Source: a virus
Strand: one strand, 5' to 3'
DNA: 64,000 bases
Virus record (IMG/VR): IMGVR_UViG_3300028131_000823
Span: 62,001-126,000 of that record
The notes beneath the pieces are model-generated. The model did no database searches. It was not told the origin of the DNA and was given only the letters and a program-made list of their open reading frames with translations. A program made the position numbers and the translations under genes. This document shows positions 1,828 to 61,080 of the stretch, piece by piece; the stretch's first letter is position 1; each line of letters starts with the position of its first letter.

Positions 1828-1859
1828 AAAGGAGATTGTATGAAACAATCTCCTTTTTT
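1828..1859 (+). terminator. intrinsic terminator, overlapping a middle-type promoter
   Basis: AAAGGAGATTG pairs with CAATCTCCTTT around a short loop containing TGAAA and is followed by Ts. The AAACAA box of the middle-type promoter at 1843 starts inside the loop and runs into the 3' arm, so terminator and promoter share bases. Confidence 0.85.
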
Positions 1860-1868
1860 AGTATATAA
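1843..1868 (+). promoter_or_regulatory. middle-type promoter AAACAA-N14-ATATAA
   Basis: AAACAA at 1843-1848 and ATATAA at 1863-1868, exactly 14 nt apart, 16 nt before the ATG at 1885. One of eleven sites in the window with identical boxes and spacing. Confidence 0.7.
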
Positions 1869-1884
1869 GTTTTAAAATAACTAT

Positions 1885-2154
1885 ATGAAAAGTATACTAG
1901 AAGAAGCAGATCAAATTATCAATCACAGAAGCGAAGAAAAAGAAAGACAATATGGCCCTTTCAGCGAGGGTATGGATAGAGCAGCATCTATTTTCAATGG
2001 CATGACTGGCTTAGAAGTTACAGGCAGAGAAATGTACATGGCCCTAATAGCTCTTAAATTTTCAAGAGAAAGTTACAATCATAAAAGAGATAACCTCCTA
2101 GATGCAGTTGCGTATATTCAAGGATTAGACAATTACTTAAACGAAAAAGAATGA
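1885..2154 (+). CDS. DUF6378-like phage protein, 89 aa
   Basis: The arrangement of EKERQYGPF near the N-terminus, a central MALIALKFSRE helix and a C-terminal DNLLDAVAYIQG resembles the small phage family DUF6378 (R..YG, lKl.R, Dn..D...Y). This is known in many phages but has no assigned activity; its acidic helical pattern is reminiscent of MazG/dUTPase-type all-alpha pyrophosphatases. It overlaps the next gene by 4 nt (ATGA) and opens a nucleotide/DNA metabolism unit driven by the middle-type promoter just upstream. Confidence 0.6.
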   Translation: MKSILEEADQIINHRSEEKERQYGPFSEGMDRAASIFNGMTGLEVTGREMYMALIALKFSRESYNHKRDNLLDAVAYIQGLDNYLNEKE

Positions 2155-3239
2155 AAATATTATTTACAGGCTGTACGGCCAAACAAACAGACGATGACGC
2201 TTGGAAAAGAGCAAGAGTTAAAAGAATAGATGATAGTAGTATTATCTGTAATTCATTAAGAAAACAAGGTTACACAGTAGACAGAAAGAAAGTTAAATGG
2301 GGAGATGATCTTTCAGAATATGGACTTGCTATTGTAGGCCTTGGTCAATTTGGTTCTAACAATTATTCAGGTGAAATCTTTAACGCATTATATGCAATTA
2401 ATGAATGTGATAATGTTTTAGTTTTTCATGAAGATTGGAAAATTGACGGTACTATGAAATCATTTAAATCAATGTTAGATGATGAAACTTACGAAAAGAC
2501 TATAGCAAAGAAATGGAGTGACGGGAGACACTTTTATGGTGGAGTTGATAATCAACACTTTAATAAAGATGTTGCAAGACAGGTTATACAAGACATGGTA
2601 GATGCAAAATATGACGCCATTATACCGGCATTCGATTGGGGTAATAAACAACTTGTTAGAGATATTATTGGTAGTAAAAATATTTATAATATAGACCTTA
2701 CTCCTTATGTCCTAGAGAATTGGAATATTTCAACAACATATACTTCTCAAATTAAAGAAAGAAAACATATGTTGGCTTCTCTTGTAAATCATAAGCCATG
2801 GGTAAATAGAAATAAATTATCATGGCCTGTAGATTATTTCGGTGCAAAGAGTATTAAAGAGGCAAAGCAGTTAAAAACTGAAACTGATGTTTTTGAAGCT
2901 TGTGGAAAGTATTGGAGTATTTTATGTCCTGAATATCCTCATGCAGGAAGTGGCTGGTTTAGAATTAGATGGGTTTATGCTGCAATACAAAGGTCAGTAT
3001 TACTTTCAAGTGAAAAAGATACAGAAGCATTAGGTCTTCCTAAAGTTAAAGTAGAATCATTAAGTAATACAGAATTAGAAGATTATGCAAATCAACTTTC
3101 AGAAACTGTACTTAGTTATATGTGGACAAAAGATGTATTTGATGTAAAAATAAAAGAGATAGTAGAAACAGTTGGAGAAAATCTTTCAATTAGTTCACAA
3201 CCTACCACTGGAATTAGTAAACAAACTGCGTTGTTTTAA
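2151..3239 (+). CDS. unidentified 362-aa protein, possible GT-B-type glycosyltransferase
   Basis: It starts MKILFTGCTAK, a Rossmann-like first strand. Alternating hydrophobic strands follow to about residue 180. A second half has PVDYFGAKS near 225-240 and GSGWFRIRWVYAA near 265-280, a layout loosely like T4 beta-glucosyltransferase (MKIAIINMG; YGGSFRSGQ; FITLRVWETMAS). This is weak by-eye similarity, so a DNA glycosyltransferase is only a candidate. The extreme C-terminus KQTALF resembles tails on the polymerase C-fragment and flap nuclease in this window. It is translationally coupled (ATGA) to the gene before and lies between nucleotide-pool and polymerase genes. Confidence 0.4.
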   Translation: MKILFTGCTAKQTDDDAWKRARVKRIDDSSIICNSLRKQGYTVDRKKVKWGDDLSEYGLAIVGLGQFGSNNYSGEIFNALYAINECDNVLVFHEDWKIDGTMKSFKSMLDDETYEKTIAKKWSDGRHFYGGVDNQHFNKDVARQVIQDMVDAKYDAIIPAFDWGNKQLVRDIIGSKNIYNIDLTPYVLENWNISTTYTSQIKERKHMLASLVNHKPWVNRNKLSWPVDYFGAKSIKEAKQLKTETDVFEACGKYWSILCPEYPHAGSGWFRIRWVYAAIQRSVLLSSEKDTEALGLPKVKVESLSNTELEDYANQLSETVLSYMWTKDVFDVKIKEIVETVGENLSISSQPTTGISKQTALF

Positions 3240-3262
3240 TAAAAATATAAAGAACAAAAGAA

Positions 3263-3727
3263 ATGGCAAACGAAGATAATCAATGTGCAGATTTAGAGGT
3301 TAAAGACCACTACTCAGAAGGTAAAGATACTTTCGGCATGATTTACAATAAACAAAGAGAATTGCAAAGTAGATTAGGTTTAAATTATGAAAACTTAACT
3401 CTTAAAGAAATTGCAGAAATGTGGATGGTAAATAAACATGCAATGTCAGATGAGCTTAATGAAATGTTTGATGCCTTAGGCGGTATTAATGATGGAATTG
3501 GTTCAGCTGCTTGGAAATATTGGAAACAGGATAATAAGAAAGCAGAAACAATGACAGTTGCAGATTTATCAGAAGCTGATAGGTTAGAATTATTTTATGA
3601 ATGGATCGATGGCCTTCATTTCTATATGAACTTTGCACTTGCAATTGGAATGACTAGTGAGGATATTGTCAACCTTTATATGGCAAAACAAAAAGAGAAT
3701 ATTAACAGACAAGAAAGAGGATATTAA
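3263..3727 (+). CDS. dimeric all-alpha dUTPase-like pyrophosphatase, 154 aa
   Basis: Helical protein with paired acidic metal-binding motifs typical of dimeric dUTPase/MazG-type enzymes: DELNEMFDALGG (about 63-74) followed by WKYWK, and EWIDGLHFYMNFALAIG (about 114-130). Such enzymes hydrolyse dUTP (or another dNTP) to the monophosphate and pyrophosphate, keeping uracil out of DNA and feeding dTMP synthesis. The last base of its TAA is the first base of the polymerase ATG, so translation is probably coupled. Exact nucleotide preference cannot be read. Confidence 0.7.
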   Translation: MANEDNQCADLEVKDHYSEGKDTFGMIYNKQRELQSRLGLNYENLTLKEIAEMWMVNKHAMSDELNEMFDALGGINDGIGSAAWKYWKQDNKKAETMTVADLSEADRLELFYEWIDGLHFYMNFALAIGMTSEDIVNLYMAKQKENINRQERGY

Positions 3728-5127
3728 TGCTATTAGATATTGAACAACGAGATAAAGAAGTAATTGTAAGCTATTATAACACAGAAGGTGAAGTAGCCTT
3801 TAAAAGATACCCAGTTGGTCAATTTCAAAATTGGTATGTAACACATGACAAAGATCGTTACAGACATGAAAGCGCACAAAATTGGGATGGTCGACCTGTT
3901 AAATTATCAAATGCAAGACAATATAATAAATTTTCTTTGATCTATTTTATAGATCAACTTCCAGAAGCTGATAAAAAAGAAATACTTGCATATAATAAAC
4001 CAAGAACATATTTCGTAGACATTGAAACAGAGATTGTAGATGGCTTCCCTAAACCAGAAGAGGCTAAGACACGTATCCTGTCATTCTCTATCATTACACC
4101 AGAAAGAAAGGCTATAGTTTTAGGCTTAAAAGATTTGGATGATATGACAGGTATGCAAGATGATACTAACAAATATTTTAAATCATTGGATAGTGATTGG
4201 AGTCTATCATATTATAAGTTTAAGAATGAATATGATATGGTTTATAACTTTATTCATAAGTTTATGCCTAAGTTTCCAATGATGACAGGTTGGAACTTTA
4301 TTAATTATGATTGGCAATATATTGTTAACCGATGTAAGAGACTACAAATTGATATTAGTGAATCTGCAAAAACAGGTGCAGTTGATAGAATGGATGGCAG
4401 ACCACTTCATATGGGAATACTTGATTATATGCAATTGTATGATAAGTATGATCGTTCTGTAAAGGTTAAAGAATCAAATACCCTTGATTATGTTTCAGGT
4501 CAAATTGTAGGTCTTAAAAAGATTAAATACAATGGCGGCTTACAGGAATTGTATGAAAAAGATTTTAGAAAATATATTTATTATAACATTGTCGATTCAT
4601 GTTTGGTATATTATATAGATCAGAAGATTAAAGCAATGGATGTTCTTTTAACTCTTGCAAATATTACGCAAATGCCACTTTATAAAGCAGCAAGCCCAGT
4701 TGCTATGACAGAAGCATTAATGGCAAGAAAGCTTAAAGAACAAAATAAAATTATTGCAACTGAAAGAAGAGATGACAATAGAAAAGACGGTAGTTATGCC
4801 GGCGCTTTTGTTAAAGAACCAATCGTTGGTTTTTATAGTGGAGTAAGTGCATTTGACTTTGCTTCTCTATACCCTTCAATTATGCGACAATTTAATATTT
4901 CTCCTGATTCTTTTGTTGAAACTGTACAAAAACATGAGATAGAAGAAAAAAGAAAAAATAAAGATTATATTGTTTGTGAAAATGGCGCAGTCTATACAAC
5001 AGAAGATTCTGTCTTGAAAAGAATCCTCACCGACCTGTATAGTCAACGTAAGGAATATAAGGCAAAATCATTTGAATATTTTGAGAAGGCAAGATTAATT
5101 CGAAAAAAAATTAGTCAGCTAAAGTAG
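3727..5127 (+). CDS. 43: DNA polymerase N-terminal fragment (exonuclease and palm motif A)
   Basis: N-terminal half of a family B, T4 gp43-like polymerase. The 3'-5' exonuclease motifs are present: FVDIETE (D98, E100), WNFINYDWQYI (ExoII) and YNIVDSCLVYY (ExoIII). Polymerase motif A, DFASLYPSIM (D377), is near the end. The frame stops after 466 residues, before motif B; motifs B and C are in a separate gene at 10237. The two parts total 868 residues against 898 for T4 gp43, so little seems missing. The break falls between palm motif A and the fingers, where gp43 is known to be split in some Aeromonas T4-like phages. The stop is followed by a late-type motif and a terminator. Confidence 0.92.
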   Translation: MLLDIEQRDKEVIVSYYNTEGEVAFKRYPVGQFQNWYVTHDKDRYRHESAQNWDGRPVKLSNARQYNKFSLIYFIDQLPEADKKEILAYNKPRTYFVDIETEIVDGFPKPEEAKTRILSFSIITPERKAIVLGLKDLDDMTGMQDDTNKYFKSLDSDWSLSYYKFKNEYDMVYNFIHKFMPKFPMMTGWNFINYDWQYIVNRCKRLQIDISESAKTGAVDRMDGRPLHMGILDYMQLYDKYDRSVKVKESNTLDYVSGQIVGLKKIKYNGGLQELYEKDFRKYIYYNIVDSCLVYYIDQKIKAMDVLLTLANITQMPLYKAASPVAMTEALMARKLKEQNKIIATERRDDNRKDGSYAGAFVKEPIVGFYSGVSAFDFASLYPSIMRQFNISPDSFVETVQKHEIEEKRKNKDYIVCENGAVYTTEDSVLKRILTDLYSQRKEYKAKSFEYFEKARLIRKKISQLK

Positions 5128-5147
5128 TCAACTTTTGGGAGGTTGAA

Positions 5148-5156: not shown

Positions 5157-5179
5157 TCCATCAACAACTACACCCAATC

Positions 5180-5212: not shown

Positions 5213-5216
5213 AACA

Positions 5217-9439: not shown

Positions 9440-9465
9440 AAACAATATTAGTTTATTACATATAA
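9440..9465 (+). promoter_or_regulatory. middle-type promoter AAACAA-N14-ATATAA
   Basis: AAACAA 9440-9445 and ATATAA 9460-9465, 14 nt apart, 27 nt before the clamp gene. Likely promoter of the 9.5-17.7 kb replication operon. Confidence 0.7.
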
Positions 9466-9492: not shown

Positions 9493-10236
9493 ATGAAATT
9501 ACAAATCGATCGCATAGACCAGCATGCATTTACAAGTTTTGTTAATAGACTAAAGTTAATAGACTCTTTTATCTATTTCAAAATTAAAGATGGTCAAGTT
9601 ATCTCAACAGCTTACTTACCACAAAGAGACGCTGTAAAACACCATTCAGTCCCATTTGAAAGTATTTTTCAAACGGCCGAAGTACCTCAATTAGGTAAAG
9701 AATTAAAGGTTGCATTCTTCGATGCAGGTAGAATTATAGAAGCATTTAAACAATTTGAGCACGATGCAATTCGCTGCGAGATTGAATTCATAGAGAATGA
9801 ACAAGACTTAGTAGCTTCTACTTTTAGAATTTACAATGATGAGTTGGAAATTACTCTAGCATGTTCAGAGCCATCTCTAGGCTTTAAAGATCTTACACCA
9901 GATCAAATCGATGCAATATTTGCAAAAGCGCCAGATTCTTTTCAATTTGGAATTGATAACCACACTATCAATAAACTTAAATCTCTTTTTAATCTTGAAA
10001 AAGATGAGACATTCGATATTAAATCAAATGGAAAAGGTGTTGAAGTTAAAGGTAAGACATTTAATGTATTGGTTAGTCAATCACCAGAAGGAAATGGCGG
10101 CGCAACACTTTACAAAAAATACTTAACATTATTAGACAAGGAAGAGTACAACGTACACGTTTCTGCAAGCAAAGTTGTTTTTGATTCTAATGAGTCAGAT
10201 ACTTTATTAACAATATCAACTTGCCAAACAGCGTAG
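9493..10236 (+). CDS. 45: sliding clamp, gp45-like
   Basis: 247 aa (T4 gp45 is 228). The sequence has the alternating-strand pattern of a two-domain clamp, with MKLQIDRIDQHAFTSFV at the start, a central FDAGRIIEAFKQF and a C-terminal LLTISTC. Identification rests mainly on fold pattern, length and position: TAG 10236 is immediately followed by the ATG of the polymerase C-fragment, and the operon continues with UvsX and helicase. In T4 the trimeric clamp tethers the polymerase and also activates late transcription with gp55 and gp33. Confidence 0.75.
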   Translation: MKLQIDRIDQHAFTSFVNRLKLIDSFIYFKIKDGQVISTAYLPQRDAVKHHSVPFESIFQTAEVPQLGKELKVAFFDAGRIIEAFKQFEHDAIRCEIEFIENEQDLVASTFRIYNDELEITLACSEPSLGFKDLTPDQIDAIFAKAPDSFQFGIDNHTINKLKSLFNLEKDETFDIKSNGKGVEVKGKTFNVLVSQSPEGNGGATLYKKYLTLLDKEEYNVHVSASKVVFDSNESDTLLTISTCQTA

Positions 10237-11445
10237 ATGGAAGTAACTGAAGCTGTAGAAGAAAACATAGATAATTTATCTATAGAAGAATTAGAAGCAC
10301 TTGCTGCTGATTATGACATCATGAGTAATAAGTTCACGGCCTACGAACAGGCCGTGAAACTTTCGTTAAATAGTATCTATGGTGCATTCGGTAATAAGTG
10401 GTTTCATTTTTTTGATATTAACATTGCAGAATCAATTACTCTTCAAGGTCAAAATGCTATTATTTATTCAGAAACAGTATTAAATAAATACTTTAATGAT
10501 TTTTGGCATAAAGACACTAAGTTACATGAAGAACTTGGAATTAAGGTAAAAGGCAAGTTACATAGGCCATCTGTTATTTACATAGATACAGATTCTAACT
10601 ACGTGCAATTTGGTGAAATGTATGATTCTGTAGAATGGTTAGATGAGTCTAAAAAAATGGATGTTACAACATTTACATTAGAAGTTTACAACCGTAGAAT
10701 TAAGGAATTTATTTCTTTAGCGATGAAAAAATATGCAGTTGTTCATAATACTGATAATTTCTTAGTATTTGAACTAGAATCTATTGCATACTCAGGTATT
10801 TGGATGAAAAAGAAAAAGTATATTCAAGATATTGCATGGGAAGATAAGCTTTCTGTAAAAGATAGACACCCTTCTCTTAAAAAGATTAAGACAATTGGCT
10901 ACGATACTATTCAAAGTTCTACTCCATTATTTGCAAGACAAAAATTAGTAGAAGCACTTAAGTTATTGTTCACAAAGGGAACAAAGCCAGGTCCAGTTGA
11001 ATTACAAGAAATGGTACAATTCTTAAAGCAATGTAAAACTGAATTTAAGCTTGTAAATATAGACGATATTTCTTTTAATAGAAGAACTAATAATATCCAA
11101 CAGTATATTATTGACGATAATAAAGAATTTCAAATTGGACTTAAGTGTCCACCAAATGTAAAGGCTGCAGGTTTTTATAACTATCTCTTAAATAATAATT
11201 CTAAATACAAGAATAAGTATAAGATGATAGCAAATGGTGAAAAACTTAGGATCTATAATACAAAGCACCCTATTTGTGATACATTCGCATATTTACCAGG
11301 AGGGCATCCATATGAGATAGCACCTGAAATTGACTACGATACTCAATTTGGAAAATGCATGATTGATCCAATTAACAGAGTTCTTAAAGCAATAGGCTTA
11401 CAAGAATTAGATACAAACCTAATATATGCTTCGGCATTATTTTAA
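10237..11445 (+). CDS. 43: DNA polymerase C-terminal fragment (fingers, motif C, thumb)
   Basis: 402 aa continuing the gp43-like polymerase from 3727-5127. Motif B KLSLNSIYGAFGN (residues 41-53) and motif C YIDTDSNYV (catalytic D117 and D119) are present, followed by a KKKKYIQDIAWE/GYDTIQSS thumb region as in T4 gp43. The first ~35 residues are an acidic helical extension (EELEALAADYD) that may help dock to the N-fragment. The C-terminus ...IYASALF resembles the clamp-binding tail of T4/RB69 polymerase. It starts directly after the clamp stop codon. A perfect 9-bp GC-rich inverted repeat lies at 10333-10358 just before motif B. Confidence 0.92.
   Translation: MEVTEAVEENIDNLSIEELEALAADYDIMSNKFTAYEQAVKLSLNSIYGAFGNKWFHFFDINIAESITLQGQNAIIYSETVLNKYFNDFWHKDTKLHEELGIKVKGKLHRPSVIYIDTDSNYVQFGEMYDSVEWLDESKKMDVTTFTLEVYNRRIKEFISLAMKKYAVVHNTDNFLVFELESIAYSGIWMKKKKYIQDIAWEDKLSVKDRHPSLKKIKTIGYDTIQSSTPLFARQKLVEALKLLFTKGTKPGPVELQEMVQFLKQCKTEFKLVNIDDISFNRRTNNIQQYIIDDNKEFQIGLKCPPNVKAAGFYNYLLNNNSKYKNKYKMIANGEKLRIYNTKHPICDTFAYLPGGHPYEIAPEIDYDTQFGKCMIDPINRVLKAIGLQELDTNLIYASALF
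10333..10358 (+). repeat. GC-rich 9-bp inverted repeat inside the polymerase gene
   Basis: TTCACGGCC and GGCCGTGAA flank an 8-nt loop within codons for NKFTAYEQAVKL, just before motif B. The ACG, GCC and GTG codons here are uncommon in this AT-rich window, so the tract looks foreign to its surroundings. Confidence 0.6.
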
Positions 11446-20085: not shown

Positions 20086-20117
20086 AAAGATCAATTGGAA
20101 ACAATTGATCTTTTTTT
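20086..20117 (+). terminator. intrinsic terminator, overlapping a middle-type promoter
   Basis: AAAAGATCAATTG pairs with CAATTGATCTTTT around a GAAA tetraloop and continues into Ts. The AAACAA box of the gp55 promoter starts in the GAAA loop and extends into the 3' stem. Confidence 0.88.
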
Positions 20118-20124
20118 TATATAA
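20099..20124 (+). promoter_or_regulatory. middle-type promoter AAACAA-N14-ATATAA upstream of gp55
   Basis: AAACAA 20099-20104 and ATATAA 20119-20124, 14 nt apart, 18 nt before the gp55 ATG. A late sigma factor transcribed from a middle promoter fits the T4 programme. Confidence 0.72.
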
Positions 20125-23617: not shown

Positions 23618-23625
23618 GATATATA
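23618..23625 (+). promoter_or_regulatory. late-type promoter motif (GATATATA)
   Basis: GATATATA followed by C, 19 nt before the protease-scaffold ATG. Same octamer as the other late sites. Confidence 0.5.
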
Positions 23626-28672: not shown

Positions 28673-28698
28673 AAACAATTTATTTAATTATCATATAA
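28673..28698 (+). promoter_or_regulatory. middle-type promoter AAACAA-N14-ATATAA
   Basis: AAACAA 28673-28678 and ATATAA 28693-28698, 14 nt apart, 25 nt before the secreted repeat protein. It also reads as TTGAAA with TATAAT at 18-nt spacing. Confidence 0.7.
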
Positions 28699-30500: not shown

Positions 30501-30585
30501 GTTTATAACTTTTGAAAAAAAGTGTTAAAAAGTTTTCACAAGTCAAAGATTATAGTTATATTAGTATTATAATTAAAACTTAATA
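30501..30585 (+). promoter_or_regulatory. early-type promoter repeat, copy 2
   Basis: Same architecture as copy 1; the 30-bp core is at 30543-30572 and ends 16 nt before ATG 30589. CACAAG replaces CACGGG just before the core. Confidence 0.75.
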
Positions 30586-30588: not shown

Positions 30589-30864
30589 ATGCATAATAAA
30601 AACACAACCATCGATAAAGTAGCTTTAGAATTATTTAATAAACACTACAGTGAATTAAATAAGACTAAACAATTCGAATGTAATCAAGAAATGGTAAACA
30701 ATCCAAAATGGCTAGCTCCTTTCTGGAAGCAGCCAATTTATAAATCAGAAACTCAAAAAATTTGGGATGAAATAATTAACCATGCAAATAAAGCGGGTAA
30801 GGTAGTAGATTGTGGAGCTTGTAAAAACAACGGATGCATCGTTTGTGAAGAAACAAATCATTAA
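30589..30864 (+). CDS. hypothetical protein with C-terminal Cys cluster, 91 aa
   Basis: Mostly helical body followed by VDCGACKNNGCIVCEE, a C-x2-C-x4-C-x2-C arrangement suited to a zinc or iron-sulfur site. Driven by early repeat copy 2. No family recognised. Confidence 0.6.
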   Translation: MHNKNTTIDKVALELFNKHYSELNKTKQFECNQEMVNNPKWLAPFWKQPIYKSETQKIWDEIINHANKAGKVVDCGACKNNGCIVCEETNH

Positions 30865-30876
30865 TAAATCATATAA
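30851..30876 (+). promoter_or_regulatory. middle-type promoter AAACAA-N14-ATATAA upstream of the clamp loader
   Basis: AAACAA 30851-30856 overlaps the end of the previous gene; ATATAA 30871-30876 is 14 nt on. The clamp-loader ATG is 18 nt downstream. Confidence 0.72.
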
Positions 30877-34413: not shown

Positions 34414-34436
34414 TTATAAAATCAGATAAATAAAAT

Positions 34437-38908: not shown

Positions 38909-38917
38909 GATATATAG
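38909..38917 (+). promoter_or_regulatory. late-type promoter motif
   Basis: GATATATAG followed by ATTATAAAAAC, 33 nt before the sheath ATG. Confidence 0.65.
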
Positions 38918-41289: not shown

Positions 41290-41298
41290 GATATATAA
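41290..41298 (+). promoter_or_regulatory. late-type promoter motif
   Basis: GATATATAA, 22 nt before the tube protein ATG and just after the sheath terminator. Confidence 0.65.
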
Positions 41299-41958: not shown

Positions 41959-42153
41959 ATGTCAAAGGAAGACTACATAGTAAACAAATTAATTAAAAAA
42001 ATTCAAGTGCTTTTAACAGAACCTGAGTTTGAAGAATTAAATCACATTATATTAAGTAAGGCAATGGCTGAAAAACAAAGGCCTAAATCTGTTAGTGCTT
42101 TTGTAAGAGATTTAATACAGAAAGAAATTAAAAAAAATTCTGAAACAAAATAA
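41959..42153 (+). CDS. small ribbon-helix-helix-like protein, 64 aa
   Basis: From ATG 41959: a short basic start, strand KIQVLLTEPEFEELN, then two helices ending RPKSVSAFVRDLIQKEIKK. This strand-helix-helix pattern is like CopG/Arc DNA-binding proteins. The upstream in-frame ATG at 41929 is inside a run following the terminator and is less likely. A transcription regulator acting in the tail region is possible. Confidence 0.55.
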   Translation: MSKEDYIVNKLIKKIQVLLTEPEFEELNHIILSKAMAEKQRPKSVSAFVRDLIQKEIKKNSETK

Positions 42154-42168
42154 AAAACAATTATATAA
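42143..42168 (+). promoter_or_regulatory. middle-type promoter AAACAA-N14-ATATAA
   Basis: AAACAA 42143-42148 and ATATAA 42163-42168, 14 nt apart, 18 nt before the tail chaperone gene; the first box overlaps the end of the small RHH gene. Confidence 0.65.
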
Positions 42169-46400: not shown

Positions 46401-46720
46401 ATGCAATCGAAGCACTCGGTGATGATTTAATAGAAGCAGTCGAAAAACTTGCATTAATGATAGCAGACTTTGGAGGAACAGTTGAAGAAGCAAGAGAAGG
46501 TAATCAATCATTTATAGATGGAGCAATAGACACTATTAAATCTGGAGCTAAAACTCTTTTCGGAGGAGGTTTTAGTTCAGGAGGAGGAAGTACATCGAAT
46601 TCACAAAGCACTGTTGTTAACAACACAGATCAATCTGCCCTTCTTGCTGAAATTAAAAGACTACAAAATATTTTAATGTCAGGTGAAGCTACATTCCAAG
46701 TAGAAAGTAACGCGTTTTAA
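43463..46720 (+). CDS. tail tape-measure protein (gp29 role), 1085 aa, TTG start
   Basis: The longest gene in the window. It follows the frameshifting chaperone gene, the standard place for a tape measure. Residues about 110-510 are alternating hydrophobic and Gly/Ala-rich helices (for example GAGAMIVAGIAIIAIAIGVKI, which recurs in similar form several times). Residues about 560-900 carry helical repeats separated by GGVMGFLG/GGAIGGIANGM loops. The C-terminus has a Gly/Ser/Thr stretch, then DQSALLAEIKRLQNIL. TTG 43463 is the only sensible start. At 1085 aa it is nearly twice T4 gp29 (590), implying a longer tail. Confidence 0.8.
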   Translation: MSAFKSPFEKLSYEAQREIADSVQPGGAMYDLLEDIADNINQLNARESEVKRVSLFGGLTIKEALAWKFLGEKGLKAIGEGFGAIADVIDGMKTGGDEAKEKMEAIASGLEAIKGLGKAIFEFAGYLLLATPLLMIGVLAAPLFALSLFIITMALSFAAKPLADKQTQEALVAMGDIGMGLLKLGGSLLVFALISPFAIIGVIAAFIVISTLGLAFKVLDALGITDDMEKMAKALAMTGLAILSLGVSLALFRLMHPSEMELLKLSVAVGLTIIGFALAFGIIGIFKDEIMDGAYALMLTGLAIVVLGLSMYLFNMALQGIDDKWEFLLQLGITLGGLGLVMFVIGKDAEGVAMGAGAMIVAGIAIIAIAIGVKIFSSAIEGLDSPWEFLAQVGVTVAGLGLAMAGAGLIAPMIALGAGAMILAGGALIAIAIGVKLMSKVFEGNAWANMVADSGRVTESTLGFGGGRPMSNLEVLMTAIGYSFMWNPFQAIGIAGGAGAMLLAGAAMVSIGKGIEKFQGLSIDYDTFPDQLSTLTNTLAETFGKIGEDYGGAGLFGLGGGLVYQGIQSVMGMGNALSSIAYGMSKMAKLEFPTYNPDGSVKEIITLNSGTMKTINENVADMVSSLATAFGDIGKKYPSKSAGGVMGFLGFTKENPVTAGIRAVSGMGGAIGGIANGMKDMAALKFNVYGDPSKPEKITEIIDLTKGDMLKKVGDNIMKLVSTLVDGFAAIGKTYKDWRTAGDAARGLSLAQEMGPILGDIVQSMSEFAKGGMEEVPKKINEFLVEFAKNLQELAKVDGSAVKSVGNGIEWFFDAFQDEQEGIDVMIAMGKEADALNNVSSFIEKIGAVPATITKTADAIKTMSISMPKMSLLFLGDATDFVEESGKFGNHVIVGRAIKDITNSMVTLGEVNVEGFPTMLDFIEDLEDIDLSDIKKDLRHVAKSYQMIGETTNSLDIEAIVETSNMFKALAYLSEQGGEDAIEALGDDLIEAVEKLALMIADFGGTVEEAREGNQSFIDGAIDTIKSGAKTLFGGGFSSGGGSTSNSQSTVVNNTDQSALLAEIKRLQNILMSGEATFQVESNAF

Positions 46721-46744
46721 ACAAATTTCTTTTTTCATATATAA
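46719..46744 (+). promoter_or_regulatory. middle-type promoter AAACAA-N14-ATATAA
   Basis: AAACAA 46719-46724 and ATATAA 46739-46744, 14 nt apart. Only 5 nt separate the second box from ATG 46750, so the transcript would be leaderless or nearly so. Confidence 0.65.
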
Positions 46745-46749: not shown

Positions 46750-46974
46750 ATGAAAACAACAGAAACTACGTTTTATGAATCAAGTACAATTAAATGTTCA
46801 CAATATAATTTTAAAGATAAAATAATGTTAGTAACATTTAATTCAGGGATAACGTATCAATATGATAACGTCGATATTAAAACTTATGAAAAGTTCTCTA
46901 TGGCTGAATCACAAGGTAAGGCCCTAAACGAGCATATTAAAAATACAGAAATTAAAGCAACTAAAGTAGTATAA
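46750..46974 (+). CDS. KTSC-domain protein, 74 aa
   Basis: Matches the KTSC domain pattern: ESSTIKCSQYNFKDKIMLVTFNSGITYQYDNVDIKTYEKFSMAESQGKALNEHI, residues about 10-63. The family is found alone or fused to other domains in bacteria and phages; its role is not established (RNA binding has been suggested for related proteins). First gene of the unit with the AlaRS-like gene. Confidence 0.75.
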   Translation: MKTTETTFYESSTIKCSQYNFKDKIMLVTFNSGITYQYDNVDIKTYEKFSMAESQGKALNEHIKNTEIKATKVV

Positions 46975-49357: not shown

Positions 49358-49443
49358 TGTTCATAACTTTTTAAAAAAAGTGCTCTAAAATTTTCACGAG
49401 TCAAAGATTATAGTTATATTAGTATTATAATTAAAACTTAAAC
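49358..49443 (+). promoter_or_regulatory. early-type promoter repeat, copy 3
   Basis: TTCATAACTTTTT...AAAAAAAGTGC inverted repeat, TTTTCACGAG, then the 30-bp core at 49401-49430, ending 16 nt before ATG 49447. Confidence 0.75.
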
Positions 49444-49446: not shown

Positions 49447-49899
49447 ATGGAAATAATAGAAAATTTAAAACATGTAAGTAGCAACACTGTATTTGCTGGT
49501 ACTGTTACTCAAAAAGACAATAAAGGTAAACAATTAAAATTTACGGTTTCAAATCATTTAGAAGAAGGAGTTGAATACAAATTCAGATATACTTGTAAAT
49601 GTAGAGCTGGATTTTTAAATATCAATAACCAAACAGCTACGCCTGAACAATTTATCTCATCAACTTATGCTTTTTTAGATAATGTACAAGTTTTGAAAAA
49701 ATTCGATGACGGTACTGAACATTGGTTTAATGTATTAACTACTAAAGGTGGTAAATTTCACTCAATTGATAAAGCATTCTTAAACCACTTAAAAGTAACT
49801 CACATGCACAATGCTTGGAAAAAAATGGTTGACTATGATCTTTGGAAAAATATGAACACAAAAACCCATGCCAGTTACGCATATAAAATAAACAAATAA
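49447..49899 (+). CDS. hypothetical protein, 150 aa
   Basis: Beta-rich first half (NTVFAGTVTQKDNKGKQLKF, YKFRYTCKCRAGFL) and a helical second half with many aromatic and His residues (FLNHLKVTHMHNAWKKMVDY). Expressed from early repeat 3. No family recognised. Confidence 0.65.
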   Translation: MEIIENLKHVSSNTVFAGTVTQKDNKGKQLKFTVSNHLEEGVEYKFRYTCKCRAGFLNINNQTATPEQFISSTYAFLDNVQVLKKFDDGTEHWFNVLTTKGGKFHSIDKAFLNHLKVTHMHNAWKKMVDYDLWKNMNTKTHASYAYKINK

Positions 49900-50174: not shown

Positions 50175-50262
50175 TTGTTCATAACTTTTTGAAAAAAGTT
50201 GCCTCTAGATTTTTTTATGTCAAAGATTATAGTTATATTAGTATTATAATTAAAACTTAAAC
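50175..50262 (+). promoter_or_regulatory. early-type promoter repeat, copy 4
   Basis: AACTTTTTGAAAAAAGTT forms a complete inverted repeat; the core is at 50220-50249 and ends 16 nt before ATG 50266. TTTTTATG replaces the usual CACGGG segment, so that part is not essential to the class. Confidence 0.75.
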
Positions 50263-50265: not shown

Positions 50266-50451
50266 ATGAATAATATAGAAAAATTAGAGAAAAGCCTAAG
50301 TTTCCATACAGAAATGGGAAACATTGGTATGGTTAATACTCTTAAGCCACTGCTTATAAAAAAAATAAAAGATCTTCTTTTATTTAACATGGACATGGGA
50401 AATAAAGGTATGACTAGTATTCTTACTAACAAACTTAATAAACTTAAATAA
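50266..50451 (+). CDS. small internally duplicated protein, 61 aa
   Basis: Two similar halves: FHTEMGNIGMVNTLKPLL (13-30) and FNMDMGNKGMTSILTNKL (40-57), each a helix-GN.GM-helix unit. The duplication is visible at the DNA level too. No family recognised; small internally paired helical proteins like this often dimerise. Confidence 0.6.
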   Translation: MNNIEKLEKSLSFHTEMGNIGMVNTLKPLLIKKIKDLLLFNMDMGNKGMTSILTNKLNKLK

Positions 50452-50972: not shown

Positions 50973-51029
50973 AAATTTTCACGGGTCAAAGATTATAGTT
51001 ATATTAGTATTATAAATTTAAAACGTAAA
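50951..51029 (+). promoter_or_regulatory. early-type promoter repeat, copy 5
   Basis: AAAAAAAGTTGCCT, TTTTCACGGG, then the core at 50986-51015, 17 nt before ATG 51033. Its first part is coding sequence of the previous gene. Confidence 0.72.
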
Positions 51030-51032: not shown

Positions 51033-51500
51033 ATGACAGATCAAAAATGGGTAATATTCGACTTAGATGGAACTTTAGCGAATATAGATACAAGAAGAAA
51101 GCTTGCAACTAAGCCAAATGGTAAAATAGATTGGGATATATTTTTCGATCCTGCAAATATAAAGTTAGATCAGCCAAATCATGCTGTGATAAAAATGGCT
51201 CAAATTCTTGCAGAGTCTGGTCACATGATCGCTATCTTTAGTGGTAGAAGTAAAGGTACTCAATTGACTACTAAGAGTTGGTTGGTTAAACACAAAGTAC
51301 CTTTTCATGTAATTAAGATGAGACCAACTGGCAAAGATTGGATGTTTAAGCCAGACGATCAACTTAAACAAAACTGGTTAGATGATTTATTTCCAGATAA
51401 AAGCAACATTGTTTGTGTCTTTGATGACAGAGATAAAGTTGTAAAAATGTGGAGAAATAACGACCTAACATGTATGCAAGTTGCTCCAGGCGACTTTTAA
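51033..51500 (+). CDS. HAD-type polynucleotide 3'-phosphatase-like protein, 155 aa
   Basis: HAD motif I FDLDGTLA (D10, D12), motif II IFSGRSKGTQLTTKSWL, and C-terminal VFDDRDKVVKMWRNNDLTCMQVAPGDF, which closely follows the phosphatase domain of T4 polynucleotide kinase ([26 protein letters not shown]). The kinase domain is missing. It would remove 3' phosphates from nucleic acid ends, for tRNA repair or DNA repair with the ligase encoded downstream. Early promoter. Confidence 0.8.
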   Translation: MTDQKWVIFDLDGTLANIDTRRKLATKPNGKIDWDIFFDPANIKLDQPNHAVIKMAQILAESGHMIAIFSGRSKGTQLTTKSWLVKHKVPFHVIKMRPTGKDWMFKPDDQLKQNWLDDLFPDKSNIVCVFDDRDKVVKMWRNNDLTCMQVAPGDF

Positions 51501-51501: not shown

Positions 51502-51527
51502 AAACAATATTAATTTTATTCATATAA
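51502..51527 (+). promoter_or_regulatory. middle-type promoter AAACAA-N14-ATATAA
   Basis: AAACAA 51502-51507 and ATATAA 51522-51527, 14 nt apart, 9 nt before ATG 51537. Confidence 0.68.
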
Positions 51528-51536: not shown

Positions 51537-51761
51537 ATGATAGAAATTTTAGGATATACAGCAACTGCTTTAATTATATTTTCATTTACGATAGAAAATA
51601 TAAAAAGATTAAGAACCGTTAATACAATAGGATGTTTTTTATTTACAATATATGGGCTTTATATTTTAAGCATTCCAATTATAATTACCAACATGGTGAT
51701 TATGGCAATAAACTTACATCAACTTTTAAAAATTATAAAAGAAGAAAGTGGACTTGAATAG
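51537..51761 (+). CDS. small membrane protein with three helices, 74 aa
   Basis: Three hydrophobic stretches: ILGYTATALIIFSFTI, RTVNTIGCFLFTIYGLYIL and IPIIITNMVIMAINLHQLL. This resembles YgjV/SemiSWEET-like small membrane proteins (a three-helix unit with conserved N and G). Host inner membrane is the likely site; substrate unknown. Confidence 0.55.
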   Translation: MIEILGYTATALIIFSFTIENIKRLRTVNTIGCFLFTIYGLYILSIPIIITNMVIMAINLHQLLKIIKEESGLE

Positions 51762-51894: not shown

Positions 51895-51950
51895 AAAGTT
51901 TTCACGGGTCAAAGATTATAGTTATATTAGTATTATAATTAAAACAAAGA
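51870..51950 (+). promoter_or_regulatory. early-type promoter repeat, copy 6
   Basis: AAAAAAAGTG, TTTTCACGGG, then the core at 51909-51938, 18 nt before the ligase ATG. The upstream half overlaps the previous coding region. Confidence 0.72.
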
Positions 51951-51956: not shown

Positions 51957-53249
51957 ATGTTAGAAAAAATAAAAGCTTTTGTAGAGCAAAGTAACTCATC
52001 AAACTCAAACTTAGACAAGTTAAAAGTATTAGAACAGTTTAAGGATGATCTAGAGGTCACTAGAATGCTCAAGTATGTATACTCACCATTTAAACAATAT
52101 TATGTTACTTCAAAAAATCTAAAGAAGAGAAGTGACCTAATGAACTCTCACACTGACAATAATTTGTTTAATTTATTAGATAGATTAAACAATAGAGAAA
52201 TTACAGGCCATACTGCAATTGCAGAAGTTAATGGTTTTATTAATAACAATGAAGAATACGCAGATCTTATTTATAATATTATTGATAGGAATCTTAAAAC
52301 AAGATCTACGACTTCGATGATTAATAAAATTATTCCAGGCTGTGTTCCAACATTTGATGTAGCATTGGCATCTGCGTATGATGATAAAACTAAAAAGAAA
52401 GTAAATTTCATAGAAGACGATTGGTACCTTAGCAGGAAACTTGATGGTGTTAGATGTCTTGCAATCTTTAATGAATGGGGAGAAGTAAGTCTCTACTCAA
52501 GAAGTGGTAAATCATTTCTTACATTAGAGAATGTTAGACAAGAACTTGAAAGTTTAGAACTTACAAACATGGTAATGGATGGTGAAATATGCATGGTAGA
52601 CGAAGATGGAAATGAGGACTTTCAATCAATTATTAAAGAGATTAAAAGAAAGAACCACATAATTGAAAAGCCATTATTTCAAGCATTTGATTTAATTACA
52701 GCAGAGGATTTTGCAAATAAAGTTTCAAAAGAGCCCTTATATCTTAGACTACAGACGCTTGAGATGATTCTAGGCAATCCAAACCTAGAGTATATTAAAT
52801 ATTTACAACAGTATTTAACTACTGGTGAGGACATGGTAAAGGAACAAATGGCAATCGCAGCTAAAGAAGGTTGGGAAGGTTTGATGCTAAGAAAAGACGA
52901 TGTTTATAAAGGTAAGAGAAGCCAAGACATTTTAAAGGTTAAAAAAATGTTTGATGCTGAATATGTCGTAGTAGGTCTTGAAAATGCAATTAACAGAGTA
53001 ATTGTAGATGGTAAAGAAGTAGATGAGATGATGCTTAAAAATGTAGTTATAGAACATAAAGGCAATAGAGTACAAGTTGGCAGTGGCTTTAGTCTTGAAC
53101 AAAAAAGAAACTTTTTTGAAAATCCTAATAAAATATTAAACAAAACCATAACTGTGCAATACTTCGAAGAAACTACAAATCAAGAAGGAGAACATTCACT
53201 AAGGTTCCCAGTAATTAAAGCAGTCTACGAAGAAGCCAGGGATTTTTAA
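51957..53249 (+). CDS. 30: ATP-dependent DNA ligase, gp30-like
   Basis: 430 aa (T4 487). Nucleotidyltransferase motif I KLDGVR with the adenylated Lys161, motif III-type NMVMDGEICMVD, motif IV EGLMLRKDD and motif V DILKVKKM, followed by an OB-fold. An N-terminal helical domain (1-120) precedes the catalytic core. Joins Okazaki fragments and repairs nicks. Under an early-type repeat. Confidence 0.93.
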   Translation: MLEKIKAFVEQSNSSNSNLDKLKVLEQFKDDLEVTRMLKYVYSPFKQYYVTSKNLKKRSDLMNSHTDNNLFNLLDRLNNREITGHTAIAEVNGFINNNEEYADLIYNIIDRNLKTRSTTSMINKIIPGCVPTFDVALASAYDDKTKKKVNFIEDDWYLSRKLDGVRCLAIFNEWGEVSLYSRSGKSFLTLENVRQELESLELTNMVMDGEICMVDEDGNEDFQSIIKEIKRKNHIIEKPLFQAFDLITAEDFANKVSKEPLYLRLQTLEMILGNPNLEYIKYLQQYLTTGEDMVKEQMAIAAKEGWEGLMLRKDDVYKGKRSQDILKVKKMFDAEYVVVGLENAINRVIVDGKEVDEMMLKNVVIEHKGNRVQVGSGFSLEQKRNFFENPNKILNKTITVQYFEETTNQEGEHSLRFPVIKAVYEEARDF

Positions 53250-54983: not shown

Positions 54984-55730
54984 ATGGCACATATACAATG
55001 GGGCGGATATAAATGGCGTCCAAGAGAAAAATGGGGAACATATCACCCTGACAAAACATATTGCTATTATGATAGAAGCGCAATAGAAATAAATGAAAAG
55101 GACGAAATGATCTTAAAGACTCAAATGAATCCAAAAACATTTAAAGGCAAGTCACTTCATTATAATTCAGAATTAACAGAGCTTGAAATTCCAATAGGAG
55201 TAGGTTTAGTATCAAGCGTTGATGGCTTTGGCTATGGATATTTTGAAATAGAAGCTAAGTTACCAACAGGTAAGAATCTATGGCCTGCATTTTGGATGAG
55301 TCCATTTGAAAGTTGGCCACCTGAAATTGATGTCTTTGAGGCTTATTCAAAAAACAAAGAACACTTTTTTCATTTTAATCTTTTTAATCCATTTGGCTTT
55401 TGGAGAGTTGAAACTAATTTTCACTGTGGAAAGCAACCCGATAATTATAATTTAGGAGCAAAGACACATTGGCTAGGTTGGAAAAATCCAGCAAAACACT
55501 TTAATAAATTTGGATGTTTATGGACTGAAGATGTGATTAAAATATTTTATAATGATAGACTAGTTAGAGAGCTTAAAGATCCAAAGTTATTAGATGAATA
55601 TCGTGGTAAATCAATGAATGTAAAAATAAATGCACATGTTGATGCAGGTGTAGATGTAAACAATCACCCTACTTCAGAATATGTTGTAAGAAATTTTAAA
55701 TATAAATCTTTATCAGAGTTAAACAATTAA
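54984..55730 (+). CDS. glycoside hydrolase family 16 protein, 248 aa
   Basis: Beta-jelly-roll glycanase. VDGFGYGYFEIEAKLPTGKNLWPAFWMS leads to the catalytic signature EIDVFE (E114, D116, E119), and KFGCLWTEDVIKIFYNDRLVRE forms the later strands. GH16 enzymes cut beta-1,3/1,4-glucans, agarose, carrageenan or related galactans, which are common in marine Bacteroidetes habitats. No signal peptide is seen, so it may be a virion part or act after lysis. Specificity cannot be assigned. Confidence 0.85.
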   Translation: MAHIQWGGYKWRPREKWGTYHPDKTYCYYDRSAIEINEKDEMILKTQMNPKTFKGKSLHYNSELTELEIPIGVGLVSSVDGFGYGYFEIEAKLPTGKNLWPAFWMSPFESWPPEIDVFEAYSKNKEHFFHFNLFNPFGFWRVETNFHCGKQPDNYNLGAKTHWLGWKNPAKHFNKFGCLWTEDVIKIFYNDRLVRELKDPKLLDEYRGKSMNVKINAHVDAGVDVNNHPTSEYVVRNFKYKSLSELNN

Positions 55731-55746
55731 TTTTTTTAGTATATAA
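55721..55746 (+). promoter_or_regulatory. middle-type promoter AAACAA-N14-ATATAA
   Basis: AAACAA 55721-55726 and ATATAA 55741-55746, 14 nt apart, 5 nt before ATG 55752, implying a near-leaderless mRNA. Confidence 0.68.
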
Positions 55747-55919: not shown

Positions 55920-55926
55920 ATAATAC

Positions 55927-58128: not shown

Positions 58129-58213
58129 TTGTTAATAACTTTTAGGAAAAAAGTGCCTAAAAGTTTTCACGGGTCAAAGATTATAGTTATATTAGTATTA
58201 TAATTAAAACTTA
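58129..58213 (+). promoter_or_regulatory. early-type promoter repeat, copy 7
   Basis: TTAATAACTTTT...AAAAAAGTGCC, TTTTCACGGG, core at 58174-58203, 13 nt before ATG 58217. Confidence 0.75.
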
Positions 58214-58216
58214 AAC

Positions 58217-58408
58217 ATGACAAACATAATCGACACTTGGACTAAAAAAGAATTTTTACAGGTAATGAGCGACGCCTATAAAGACGCACACGGGATTAGA
58301 CCTAGAGGAATTAAATATTCTGAATGGTCTTTAGCAGAACTTAAAGATGAGTTCTTAATGCTGTGTTCAATCGCAGCCGAAAATGAACAGTGGGATAGAG
58401 AACATTAA
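58217..58408 (+). CDS. hypothetical protein, 63 aa
   Basis: MTNIIDTWTKKEFLQVMSDA, then a GIRPRGIKYSEWSLAELKDEF segment; acidic C-terminus. It stands alone between two early repeats (copies 7 and 8), so it is a single-gene early unit or a leader to the sigma gene. The segment resembles short phage proteins of unknown role. Confidence 0.6.
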   Translation: MTNIIDTWTKKEFLQVMSDAYKDAHGIRPRGIKYSEWSLAELKDEFLMLCSIAAENEQWDREH

Positions 58409-58409
58409 A

Positions 58410-58500
58410 TTGTTCATAACTTTTGAAAAAAAGTGCCCAAAAAATTTCACGGGTCAAAAATTATAGTTATATTAGTATTATAAATTAAAAACGTAAAAAA
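58410..58500 (+). promoter_or_regulatory. early-type promoter repeat, copy 8 (sigma gene)
   Basis: Core at 58454-58483, with TCAAAAATT in place of TCAAAGATT, the only base change seen in the core among the eight copies. It lies 25 nt before the sigma-factor gene, longer than other copies. Confidence 0.72.
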
Positions 58501-58508
58501 CAATAAAT

Positions 58509-59117: not shown

Positions 59118-59139
59118 TCTTAAATCTTAAAAAAATAAA

Positions 59140-59388
59140 ATGAATAATCAAACAAACGATAGAAAGACAAGCCAATTATTAGCAAACTTAAATAAAAGAG
59201 CATTGATGCTTGTAGAAATTTACAACTACTATGAACAAGTTGGAGAAGACATTGATAAAGAAAAAATTGATATGTTAACTGATCAAAAACTAGAAGATCT
59301 ACATGGTCACTGTATGTGGGAGATGGATCAGTTTGAAACTCAGGAAGAAAAAGATATTAAGAATGGTTTGTACGGTGAGGAATATTAA
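59140..59388 (+). CDS. hypothetical protein, 82 aa
   Basis: Helical acidic protein (TSQLLANLNKRALMLVEIYN, then YEQVGEDIDKEKIDMLTDQKL). Lies 22 nt after the sigma gene and may be co-transcribed with it. An anti-sigma role is conceivable from position only. Confidence 0.5.
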   Translation: MNNQTNDRKTSQLLANLNKRALMLVEIYNYYEQVGEDIDKEKIDMLTDQKLEDLHGHCMWEMDQFETQEEKDIKNGLYGEEY

Positions 59389-59391
59389 TAG

Positions 59392-59400
59392 GATATATAA
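59392..59400 (+). promoter_or_regulatory. late-type promoter motif
   Basis: GATATATAA whose last bases are the first As of a middle-type promoter, giving a tandem late/middle arrangement. Confidence 0.5.
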
Positions 59401-59424
59401 ACAAATCTAAAACATAACATATAA
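59399..59424 (+). promoter_or_regulatory. middle-type promoter AAACAA-N14-ATATAA
   Basis: AAACAA 59399-59404 and ATATAA 59419-59424, 14 nt apart, 5 nt before ATG 59430. Confidence 0.68.
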
Positions 59425-59429
59425 TAAAC

Positions 59430-59714
59430 ATGGAAGAACAAACACATATTTTAGACATTTTAATAGAAAAAATATCTAAAGGATTAGATAAAGATGTTAA
59501 AGTTTACTTAGCAATGGATGACGATAAAAAGGAATTACTTGCTATAAAAAAAGGAGATGATGAAAGAGGCTTAGACCTTGCACAAATAGTCAACTCTTAT
59601 GGATTTTATAGAATTTATCAAGCAGATTCTGAAGAAGAAGCACTAGATAAATTAGCTGAAGGACTTGTTAAGTCTATAACAAATATGTTAGAGACAGAAA
59701 ATTCTGAAAAATAA
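59430..59714 (+). CDS. hypothetical protein, 94 aa
   Basis: Acidic alpha/beta protein (HILDILIEKISKGLDKDVKV, then YLAMDDDKKELLAIKKG). Directly upstream of tRNA-Ala with 6 nt between, so the tRNA may be processed from its transcript. No family. Confidence 0.6.
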   Translation: MEEQTHILDILIEKISKGLDKDVKVYLAMDDDKKELLAIKKGDDERGLDLAQIVNSYGFYRIYQADSEEEALDKLAEGLVKSITNMLETENSEK

Positions 59715-59720
59715 AAAGAT

Positions 59721-59794
59721 GGGGGTATAGCTCAGTTGGCTAGAGCGCCTGCCTTGCACGCAGGAGGCCGTGGGTTCGAATCCCTCTACCTCCA
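59721..59794 (+). tRNA. tRNA-Ala (anticodon TGC)
   Basis: Cloverleaf read directly: acceptor GGGGGTA with TACCTCC, D-arm GCTC/GAGC, anticodon arm CCTGC-CTTGCAC-GCAGG with TGC, T-loop TTCGAAT. The acceptor has G3 opposite T70, the G:U pair that is the main identity signal for alanyl-tRNA synthetase. Discriminator A; CCA is not encoded. One T:T mismatch in the T-stem is shared with the tRNA-Thr below. The phage also encodes an AlaRS-like protein at 47133. Confidence 0.95.
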
Positions 59795-59805
59795 CTATCT
59801 TAATT

Positions 59806-60636
59806 ATGAAAAATCTTATATTAACCGCTAGTCTTGGAGATAGACCTTTTAAAAAATATGCGTTCTTTTCAATGGAAGAATATGCTAAAAAAACAAATGC
59901 AGATTTTATAGTAGCAGAAGATATAGAAATTCCAAAAGAATTAAAAGAACTAAAAGTAGGTAGAGGAAATAATACATCGTATTTAAAAAAGATACTGTGG
60001 ATAAGAAAATATTTAAAAGAATACGATAAAGTATTATGGCTAGATGACACATGTTACGTGAATCCAAATTGTCCAAATTTATTTAATTTTGTTCCAAGTG
60101 GATATGTGGCAGCTGCTTCTGAATCTCAATTAATGTATGTTGGCTTTAAAGAAGCATATAAGGATTTTTTAAAAAGGTGGACCATTTATAAAAACGAAAG
60201 AGACACTACATTTAATACAGGTGTTATTTTATATACTAAAGAGTGTAAACATATGTTTAGTAATGATAATTTACTAAATACAATTGCTAAATTGTGTTTG
60301 ACTTCTCAATGGCCACAACAATTACTTACAAACTATTTGATAATAATTAATAATATTCCAAGAATTGTTTTAGATTCTAAATTTAATAGAATGCATATAT
60401 GTGAAAAATACGAACCATATATAGAAAGACGCGAATTAATTAGTGAGAAAGAAGGTAAAATAAAAGACGTGTCAGATGAATTTTTTAAAAAAAATTTTAA
60501 ATTTAATAAAAAGCTTTTAAAACAAGATCCATTTGTATATGAGGCATTTATATATCACCTTGCAGGAAAATCAAAAGAAGTTAGAGAAAACCTTCTTAAA
60601 CAAATACATAAAACTTTTTCAAAAGTAAAAATATGA
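59806..60636 (+). CDS. glycosyltransferase-like protein, 276 aa
   Basis: The start MKNLILTASLGDRPFKKYAFFSMEEYAKKTNADFIV and the block YLKEYDKVLWLDDTCYVNPNCPNLF (about 67-91, with an LDD acidic cluster) resemble GT-A family 8-like transferases where a strand leads to DXD. FNTGVILYTKE later fits the family. ATG 59806 is used because the longer frame starts inside the tRNA. Overlaps the next gene by 4 nt, pairing a sugar transferase with a nucleotidyltransferase. Confidence 0.6.
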   Translation: MKNLILTASLGDRPFKKYAFFSMEEYAKKTNADFIVAEDIEIPKELKELKVGRGNNTSYLKKILWIRKYLKEYDKVLWLDDTCYVNPNCPNLFNFVPSGYVAAASESQLMYVGFKEAYKDFLKRWTIYKNERDTTFNTGVILYTKECKHMFSNDNLLNTIAKLCLTSQWPQQLLTNYLIIINNIPRIVLDSKFNRMHICEKYEPYIERRELISEKEGKIKDVSDEFFKKNFKFNKKLLKQDPFVYEAFIYHLAGKSKEVRENLLKQIHKTFSKVKI

Positions 60637-61064
60637 AAATAGGAATTACATGTTCAACATTTGACCTTTTACATGCAGGTCATATTAAAATGCTAGAAGA
60701 AGCCAAGAGTCAATGTGACTACCTAATATGTGCTCTTCAAACAGATCCAACAATTGACAGACCAGGTACAAAAAATAAGCCAATTCAATCTTTAGTAGAA
60801 AGGTTTATTCAATTAGAAGGTTGTAGTTACGTGGATAAAATATTACCATATCAAACTGAGAAAGACTTAATTGATATTTTTAGTTCATTTAAACTTGATG
60901 TAAGAATTATAGGTGGAGAATATTTTGGCAAGGAATTTACAGCAAAAGACATTTGTGAAAAAAGAGGTATTGAAATCTTTTACAACAAAAGAGATCATGG
61001 GTTTTCAAGCACTGAATTAAGAAATAGAATTTTTGAATTAGAACTTAAAAAAAGAAACAAATAA
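60633..61064 (+). CDS. cytidylyltransferase-like protein (TagD/HxGH family), 143 aa
   Basis: STFDLLHAGHIKML with the HxGH motif (H14, H17), then a CDYLICALQTDPT strand and C-terminal RDHGFSSTELRNRI (the ISST-type motif). Family members make CDP-glycerol, CDP-ethanolamine or ADP-sugars from the phosphorylated compound and CTP or ATP. Coupled to the glycosyltransferase-like gene by ATGA overlap, so it may supply an activated donor. Substrate not assignable. Confidence 0.85.
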   Translation: MKIGITCSTFDLLHAGHIKMLEEAKSQCDYLICALQTDPTIDRPGTKNKPIQSLVERFIQLEGCSYVDKILPYQTEKDLIDIFSSFKLDVRIIGGEYFGKEFTAKDICEKRGIEIFYNKRDHGFSSTELRNRIFELELKKRNK

Positions 61065-61080
61065 AAACTTCTTTATATAA
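61055..61080 (+). promoter_or_regulatory. middle-type promoter AAACAA-N14-ATATAA
   Basis: AAACAA 61055-61060 lies in the last codons of the previous gene; ATATAA 61075-61080 is 14 nt on. The histone-like gene starts 33 nt downstream. Confidence 0.68.

Follow-up and report, generated by a model that had tools for sequence, protein, structure and literature searches.

We analysed a window of 64,000 nucleotides (nt), bases 62001–126000 of the 204,977-base viral record IMGVR_UViG_3300028131_000823 (hereafter G000), in which the sequence AAACAA-N14-ATATAA (class C; family core across divergent relatives GAAAC-N17/18-TATAAT) recurs upstream of genes. We propose, with a probability of about three in four, that class C sites serve a T4-like Bacteroidota phage as its middle promoters and are read by a phage-encoded extracytoplasmic function (ECF)-type sigma factor within a three-step transcription cascade. 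The host phylum is probably Bacteroidota, judging from relatives that include phages of Prevotella, Tenacibaculum, Chryseobacterium and Sphingobacterium. Coordinates refer to the window unless stated otherwise.

The first-pass annotation of this DNA described eleven copies of the motif with invariant spacing, all on the + strand and 5–33 nt before a gene start. All eleven coordinates and strands are exact; 0.11 copies are expected in the window and 100 shuffles gave a maximum of one. The whole record holds 22 exact copies, 21 forward and one reverse; the pattern read backwards, as a control, has 0 copies there. When spacings of 0–40 were scanned on the + strand of the record, spacing 14 was found 21 times and the remaining 40 spacings 35 times in total (average 0.9; Poisson p ~5e-22), bearing out the predicted enrichment. 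In relatives the spacer, measured from AAAC to TATAA, is 17 or 18. An unbiased search for hexamer pairs returned AAACAA-14-ATATAA as the best pair outside tandem coding repeats and parts of the class A element (described below), which the other top pairs resemble; in G000 this search is dominated by short, apparently coding repeats that have a period of 27 bases (AAGGTGCT...).

All exact class C sites in G000 stand upstream of an open reading frame (ORF) or tRNA gene of the same direction. In the window the gap to the ATG is 5–33 nt, as first reported, the site at 55721 requiring a 55-codon ORF. Two sites of the record have no nearby downstream ORF and precede tRNA-Arg (43 nt) and tRNA-Glu (14 nt), and the sole minus-strand copy (record position 182330) has a same-direction ATG ORF shortly downstream. 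The near-variants AAACTA and AAACAT are likewise found at gene starts; one-mismatch versions are, overall, barely enriched, with only a few at gene starts. The −10 element is ATATAA(T), i.e. TATAAT, and the class C logo contains no TTTG; the TAnnTTTG −7 box of the Bacteroidota sigma-A promoter is not matched, in agreement with the earlier observation. A palindromic operator reading of class C (TTGAAACAA) was dropped, as the flanking bases are unconserved.

The genes reported behind class C were those for the clamp, the clamp loader, gp55 and a histone-like protein. The identities of gp55, the clamp loader (PHROG match, 1e-71) and the Hc1 histone-like protein (1e-22) are upheld by sequence; the clamp has no sequence match, and only a low-confidence structure model (predicted local distance difference test, pLDDT, 58) matches PCNA/beta clamps. 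The clamp orthologues of the relatives G014 and G023 have GAAAC-N17 with a variant −10 (TACAAT/TAGAAT), the KTSC-domain gene has an identical 5-nt promoter–ATG gap in the close relative G002. In G014 and G023, as in G000, a class C site precedes the gp55 gene.

Two further elements were found by k-mer enrichment before genes. Class A (TATATTAGTA; early-type) is an element of ~80 nt ending in TATATTAGTATTATAA, present in 13 copies, always 21–33 nt from the gene start, and it precedes the DNA ligase and sigma factor genes. The sigma gene starts 33 nt downstream of the class A core TATATTAG, and the element is kept before this gene in G014 and G023, so in three lineages in all. Copies of class A are conserved over ~80 nt (for example 58407–58490), starting TTGTTAATAACTTTT, far beyond what a promoter needs; the upstream part may bind another factor. 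Class B (late-type) is the octamer GATA(A/T)ATA (GATATATA/GATAAATA), with 63 copies on the + strand and 11 on the − strand. The plain TATAAATA octamer shows no strand bias (30 vs 26); the GATA(A/T)ATA variant stands before the sheath, tube and protease genes in four phages.

The classes divide by gene type. Among orthologues in G014, G023 and LR756500, class C precedes 10/18 middle-type genes and class B none, and class B precedes 11/15 structural (late) genes and class C none (p 3e-6 over 21 classified orthologues); orthologues in these three divergent relatives keep their class without exchange. The genes behind class C, the separate class at structural genes and this retention together give good support to the initial proposal of a middle class served by a phage factor.

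Conservation is also evident within the element. Comparison of G000 with G002 at the 16 of 20 loci with an alignable site (the four without an aligned site were set aside) gave 0/192 differences in the boxes and 26/224 in the spacers (p 8e-8); given zero box changes against these spacer changes, the boxes are under selection. Of 80 IMG/VR relatives in which the DNA upstream of the clamp loader gene was inspected by eye, most show a GAAAC-17/18-TATAA footprint despite turnover of the surrounding DNA; 13 have the exact AAACAA-N14-ATATAA. In G014, G023, LR756500 and the phage PAU, 17 is the commonest spacing between AAAC and TATAA, and 18 takes second place in three of the four spectra. The spectrum of a Lak phage stretch has no peak at 17, and in the whole records of Lak and G024 GAAAC-N17-TATAA is no more frequent than the backward control; for Lak, the motif search covered the whole record and reading of the sequence a part of it.

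The proposed reader of class C is a 202-residue protein with sigma-70 region 2 (PF04542, 40.9 bits; cut-off 24) and region 4 (PF08281, 30.7 bits; cut-off 25.7); region 4 directly follows region 2, and no region-3 match was found in the Pfam search. A PDB profile search gives SigW, AlgU and SigE as its nearest solved relatives (SigW/SigE match 7e-14), and foldseek with a low-confidence model (pLDDT 60; taken as support only) agrees on ECF relatives. Region 4 of this model superposes on sigmaE4 bound to −35 DNA at 1.0 Å over ~60 residues. SigW recognises a −35 box, TGAAAC, through base and backbone contacts of T168, K170, T171, R172 and R175 (PMC6713349), to which T185, K187, N188, R189 and R192 of the phage protein align. 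The sigma factors of G014 and G023 (52–58% identical to that of G000) and of LR756500 keep T/K/R/R, and all three genomes have GAAAC promoters; both arginines are altered in G024 (R to L, R to Q) and in Lak (R to Y, R to K), and both genomes lack the motif. Among these few genomes, SigW-type contact residues appear to accompany the motif and altered ones its absence. The AAC core of ECF −35 elements is present as GAAAC in G000, G014, G023 and LR756500, the pairing of box and sigma factor being putative. In the LR756500 sigma factor, ~40 residues are inserted in the region 4 helix-turn-helix, ahead of a recognition helix that is itself intact. No close source of the phage sigma factor emerged from a scan of cellular genomes (22–32% identity).

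With the sigma gene behind class A and the gp55 gene behind class C, the simplest reading is a relay from host sigma to ECF sigma to gp55. The sigma gene would probably be read from its class A element by the host housekeeping sigma factor, TATATTAG being one base from TAnnTTTG. Host core RNA polymerase carrying the phage ECF sigma would then read class C, with region 4 on GAAAC (−35) and region 2 on TATAAT (−10), switching on the clamp, clamp loader, Hc1, tRNA and gp55 genes, and gp55 would in turn direct late transcription from the class B octamers that precede head and tail genes. At many class B and class C sites, transcription would start at the ATG itself, giving leaderless mRNAs.

This last point is suggested by the distances to the ATG, counted over G000, G014 and G023 pooled and with a relaxed pattern for class C. 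Of 99 class B octamers, 23 lie exactly 4 nt from the ATG, one lies at 9–17 nt and the rest mostly at ≥18 nt (p 3e-16 vs uniform); class C lies 5–6 nt from the ATG in 22/75 (p 6e-12 vs uniform). Sites of either class are thus either near the ATG (4–6 nt) or ~14 nt or more from it, and intermediate distances are rare. For the 4-nt class B cases, the reading frame is closed just upstream in 21/23. As a −10 box at −12 to −7 puts the ATGs of the near group at about +1, many class B and class C mRNAs are predicted to be leaderless. The near group was not seen in LR756500 and PAU. Leaderless mRNAs make up 5.5% in Flavobacterium psychrophilum (PMC9723704), and in F. johnsoniae leaders exceed 10 nt in 87% of transcripts (PMC6847099).

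Several observations weigh against reading of class C by the ECF sigma. PAU, the host of which is a Sphingobacterium (PMC3738902), carries 23 GAAAC-N17-TATAA sites, all of them on the same strand; no orthologue of the phage ECF sigma is detectable in it, and its own sigma factor (gp1) is of another type. Either promoters of this kind can be read by a different factor, or PAU may have converged. The 23 sites of PAU are of the form GAAAC-N17-AGTATAA (for example at 35783). The correlation of contact residues with the motif is confounded by ancestry, G024 and Lak being more distant; the class C −10 is TATAAT, not the CGT typical, although not universal, of ECF promoters; and the strict class C pattern is present in only those 10 of 18 middle-type orthologues in distant relatives. 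For the early step, the mismatch of the class A core to the host consensus also counts.

The occurrence of the motif in PAU without the ECF sigma, and a class C box centred near −30 like the MotA box (PMC2988021), would fit a T4-like sigma appropriation, in which AAACAA is bound by an activator analogous to MotA but without sequence relationship to it, while ATATAA is read by host sigma-A. We consider this improbable: MotA (PF09158) and AsiA (PF09010) were undetectable in the five records searched, Bacteroidota sigma-A requires TAnnTTTG (PMC9723704), unlike the class C −10, and no alternative activator tracking the motif was found, ribonucleotide reductase and a gp2-type DNA end protector being the only proteins common to motif-bearing genomes including PAU and missing in G024. 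T4 middle promoters, where the MotA box TGCTTtA lies 12 ± 1 bp before the −10 (PMC2988021), do resemble class C in having a box near −30 plus a −10, replication, tRNA and late sigma genes behind them, and, as proposed for class C, a middle place in a T4-like programme. They differ in that the class C box is GAAAC, not TGCTT, and 15 rather than 12 bp from TATAAT, and in that the phage encodes an ECF sigma instead of any detectable MotA/AsiA. The T4 analogy made in the first-pass annotation is the right functional comparison, but not a mechanistic one.

It is similarly improbable that class B and class C are both read by gp55, with a separate −35 binder or a gp33-like co-activator adding the class C upstream box. 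The −10 regions are AT-rich and similar (GATATATAAT and YATATAAT) and a few sites belong to both classes (record positions 47830 and 154078; window position 59392), but the classes never exchange among the orthologues examined, a class C site precedes the gp55 gene itself, and the near-group offset from box to ATG differs (4 vs 5–6 nt). At the window site, the class B octamer 59392–59399 overlaps the class C box 59399–59424 by one base, and 59392–59424 is possibly a dual middle/late promoter. T4 late promoters (gp55, TATAAATA) resemble class B in its position before structural genes and in the presence of a gp55 homologue, but differ in that class B has a G at its first position, is mostly GATATATA, and has many copies 4 nt from an ATG.

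Reading by a host ECF sigma is less probable again, even with seven ECF sigmas in F. psychrophilum (PMC9723704): the known ECF motif of that bacterium has a CGT −10 box (PMC9723704), the phage has its own sigma factor behind an early element, and presence of the motif tracks the contact residues of that factor. Finally, a translation or RNA-processing signal, which the strongly constrained position near the ATG in many copies might suggest, is very improbable given class C before two tRNA genes, distances to the gene of up to ~34 nt, the −35/−10 architecture, and a class C site that follows a terminator hairpin at gp55.

At that locus, GAAAC forms the loop of a terminator hairpin (20089–20110; −16.6 kcal/mol) followed by T8; in G014 hairpin (−19.3) and box both remain with a different stem. 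The class C box of the DUF6378 locus also lies in a terminator-like hairpin loop (1830–1855; −15.2 kcal/mol). The GAAAC box as the loop of the preceding gene's terminator-like hairpin is seen at 20089–20118 and 1830–1855, and is frequent in PAU. A general overlap with terminators was rejected, a spanning hairpin being present at 13/45 G000 sites, no more than at control TATAA (214/666); strong box-spanning hairpins are confined to a few sites, namely gp55, DUF6378 and many PAU sites.

Table 1. Promoter elements and transcription factor genes in the window.
Feature	Coordinates	Strand	Remarks
Class C promoter, DUF6378 gene 1885-2154	1843..1868	+	exact motif; class kept in G014, G023
Class C promoter, sliding clamp gene 9493-10236	9440..9465	+	exact motif
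Class C promoter, gp55 gene	20099..20124	+	exact motif; GAAAC in terminator hairpin loop
gp55-type late sigma factor, 127 amino acids	20143..20526	+	PHROG phrog_234 2.1e-10
Class C promoter, gene 28724-29239 of no assigned function	28673..28698	+	exact motif; kept in G002
Class C promoter, clamp loader gene 30895-31854	30851..30876	+	exact motif
Class C promoter, gene 42187-43191 of no assigned function	42143..42168	+	exact motif
Class C promoter, KTSC-domain gene 46750-46974	46719..46744	+	5 nt before ATG, predicted leaderless
Class C promoter, gene 51537-51761	51502..51527	+	exact motif
Class C promoter, ATG 55752 (55 amino acids)	55721..55746	+	exact motif; 5 nt before ATG
Class C promoter, gene 59430-59714	59399..59424	+	exact motif
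Class C promoter, histone H1-like Hc1 gene 61114-61296	61055..61080	+	kept in G023, LR756500
ECF-type sigma factor, regions 2 and 4, 202 amino acids	58509..59117	+	Pfam domains, profile and fold matches
Class A element before sigma gene	58407..58490	+	core TATATTAG 58468-58475; kept in G014, G023
Class A core TATATTAG, gene 244-519	212..219	+	
Class A core, gene 30589-30864	30557..30564	+	
Class A core, gene 49447-49899	49415..49422	+	
Class A core, ORF 50266-50451	50234..50241	+	
Class A core, gene 51033-51500	51000..51007	+	
Class A core, DNA ligase 51957-53249	51923..51930	+	
Class A core, gene 58217-58408	58188..58195	+	
Class B octamer, prohead protease 23645-25543	23618..23625	+	kept in G014, G023, LR756500
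Class B octamer GATAAATA	34425..34432	+	4 nt before ATG 34437, predicted leaderless
Class B octamer, tail sheath 38951-41227	38909..38916	+	kept in G014, G023, LR756500
Class B octamer, tail tube 41321-41875	41290..41297	+	kept in G014, G023, LR756500

The gene following the sigma gene (59140–59388) encodes 82 amino acids. Elsewhere in the window, the family B DNA polymerase is split into two genes (3727–5127 and 10237–11445), with reductase and clamp genes between them.

Relays of phage-encoded sigma factors have a known precedent in SPO1 (PMC9429907), and Bacteroidota jumbo phages have been found in a survey to carry sigma factors (PMC7824862). As in the SPO1 cascade (host sigma-A, gp28 for middle and gp33/34 for late genes), middle genes here would be read via a phage-encoded sigma factor, as gene placement suggests; the present system differs in its ECF-type sigma, SigW-like −35, T4-type gp55 late stage and Bacteroidota phage setting. 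Promoters of Bacillus subtilis SigW and Escherichia coli SigE share with class C the −35 (TGAAAC or GGAACTT) and a similar −35 to −10 spacing, and SigW shares the region 4 contact residues T, K, R and R with the phage sigma; the phage −10 is TATAAT rather than CGT, and the proposed regulon is of phage genes rather than envelope stress. The relay itself is therefore of a known kind; the new elements of the proposal are a sigma factor of ECF type, a box like that of SigW, their combination with gp55 and the leaderless starts predicted here. An open-access literature search found no prior description of class C.

We lean slightly towards a fuller picture, at a little better than even odds, of a T4-like jumbo phage lineage of Bacteroidota in which MotA/AsiA would be replaced by the phage's own ECF sigma relaying to gp55, with a three-class promoter code, roughly a quarter to a third of middle and late mRNAs starting at the AUG, and some −35 boxes doubling as the terminator loop of the upstream gene. 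If true, the leaderless share would greatly exceed that of a flavobacterial host, reported as a few per cent, and the mRNAs predicted to be leaderless would allow this mode of translation to be studied in a phylum where Shine–Dalgarno sequences are not used. The literature searched contains hardly any description of transcription control in Bacteroidota jumbo phages (Lak/PAU relatives); the present analysis provides a testable promoter code for three stages, with a proposed reader of each, and indicates that promoters in metagenomic phage genomes can be annotated by sequence alone. Phage ECF sigma factors with SigW-type −35 boxes would also be usable as orthogonal expression tools for Bacteroidota.

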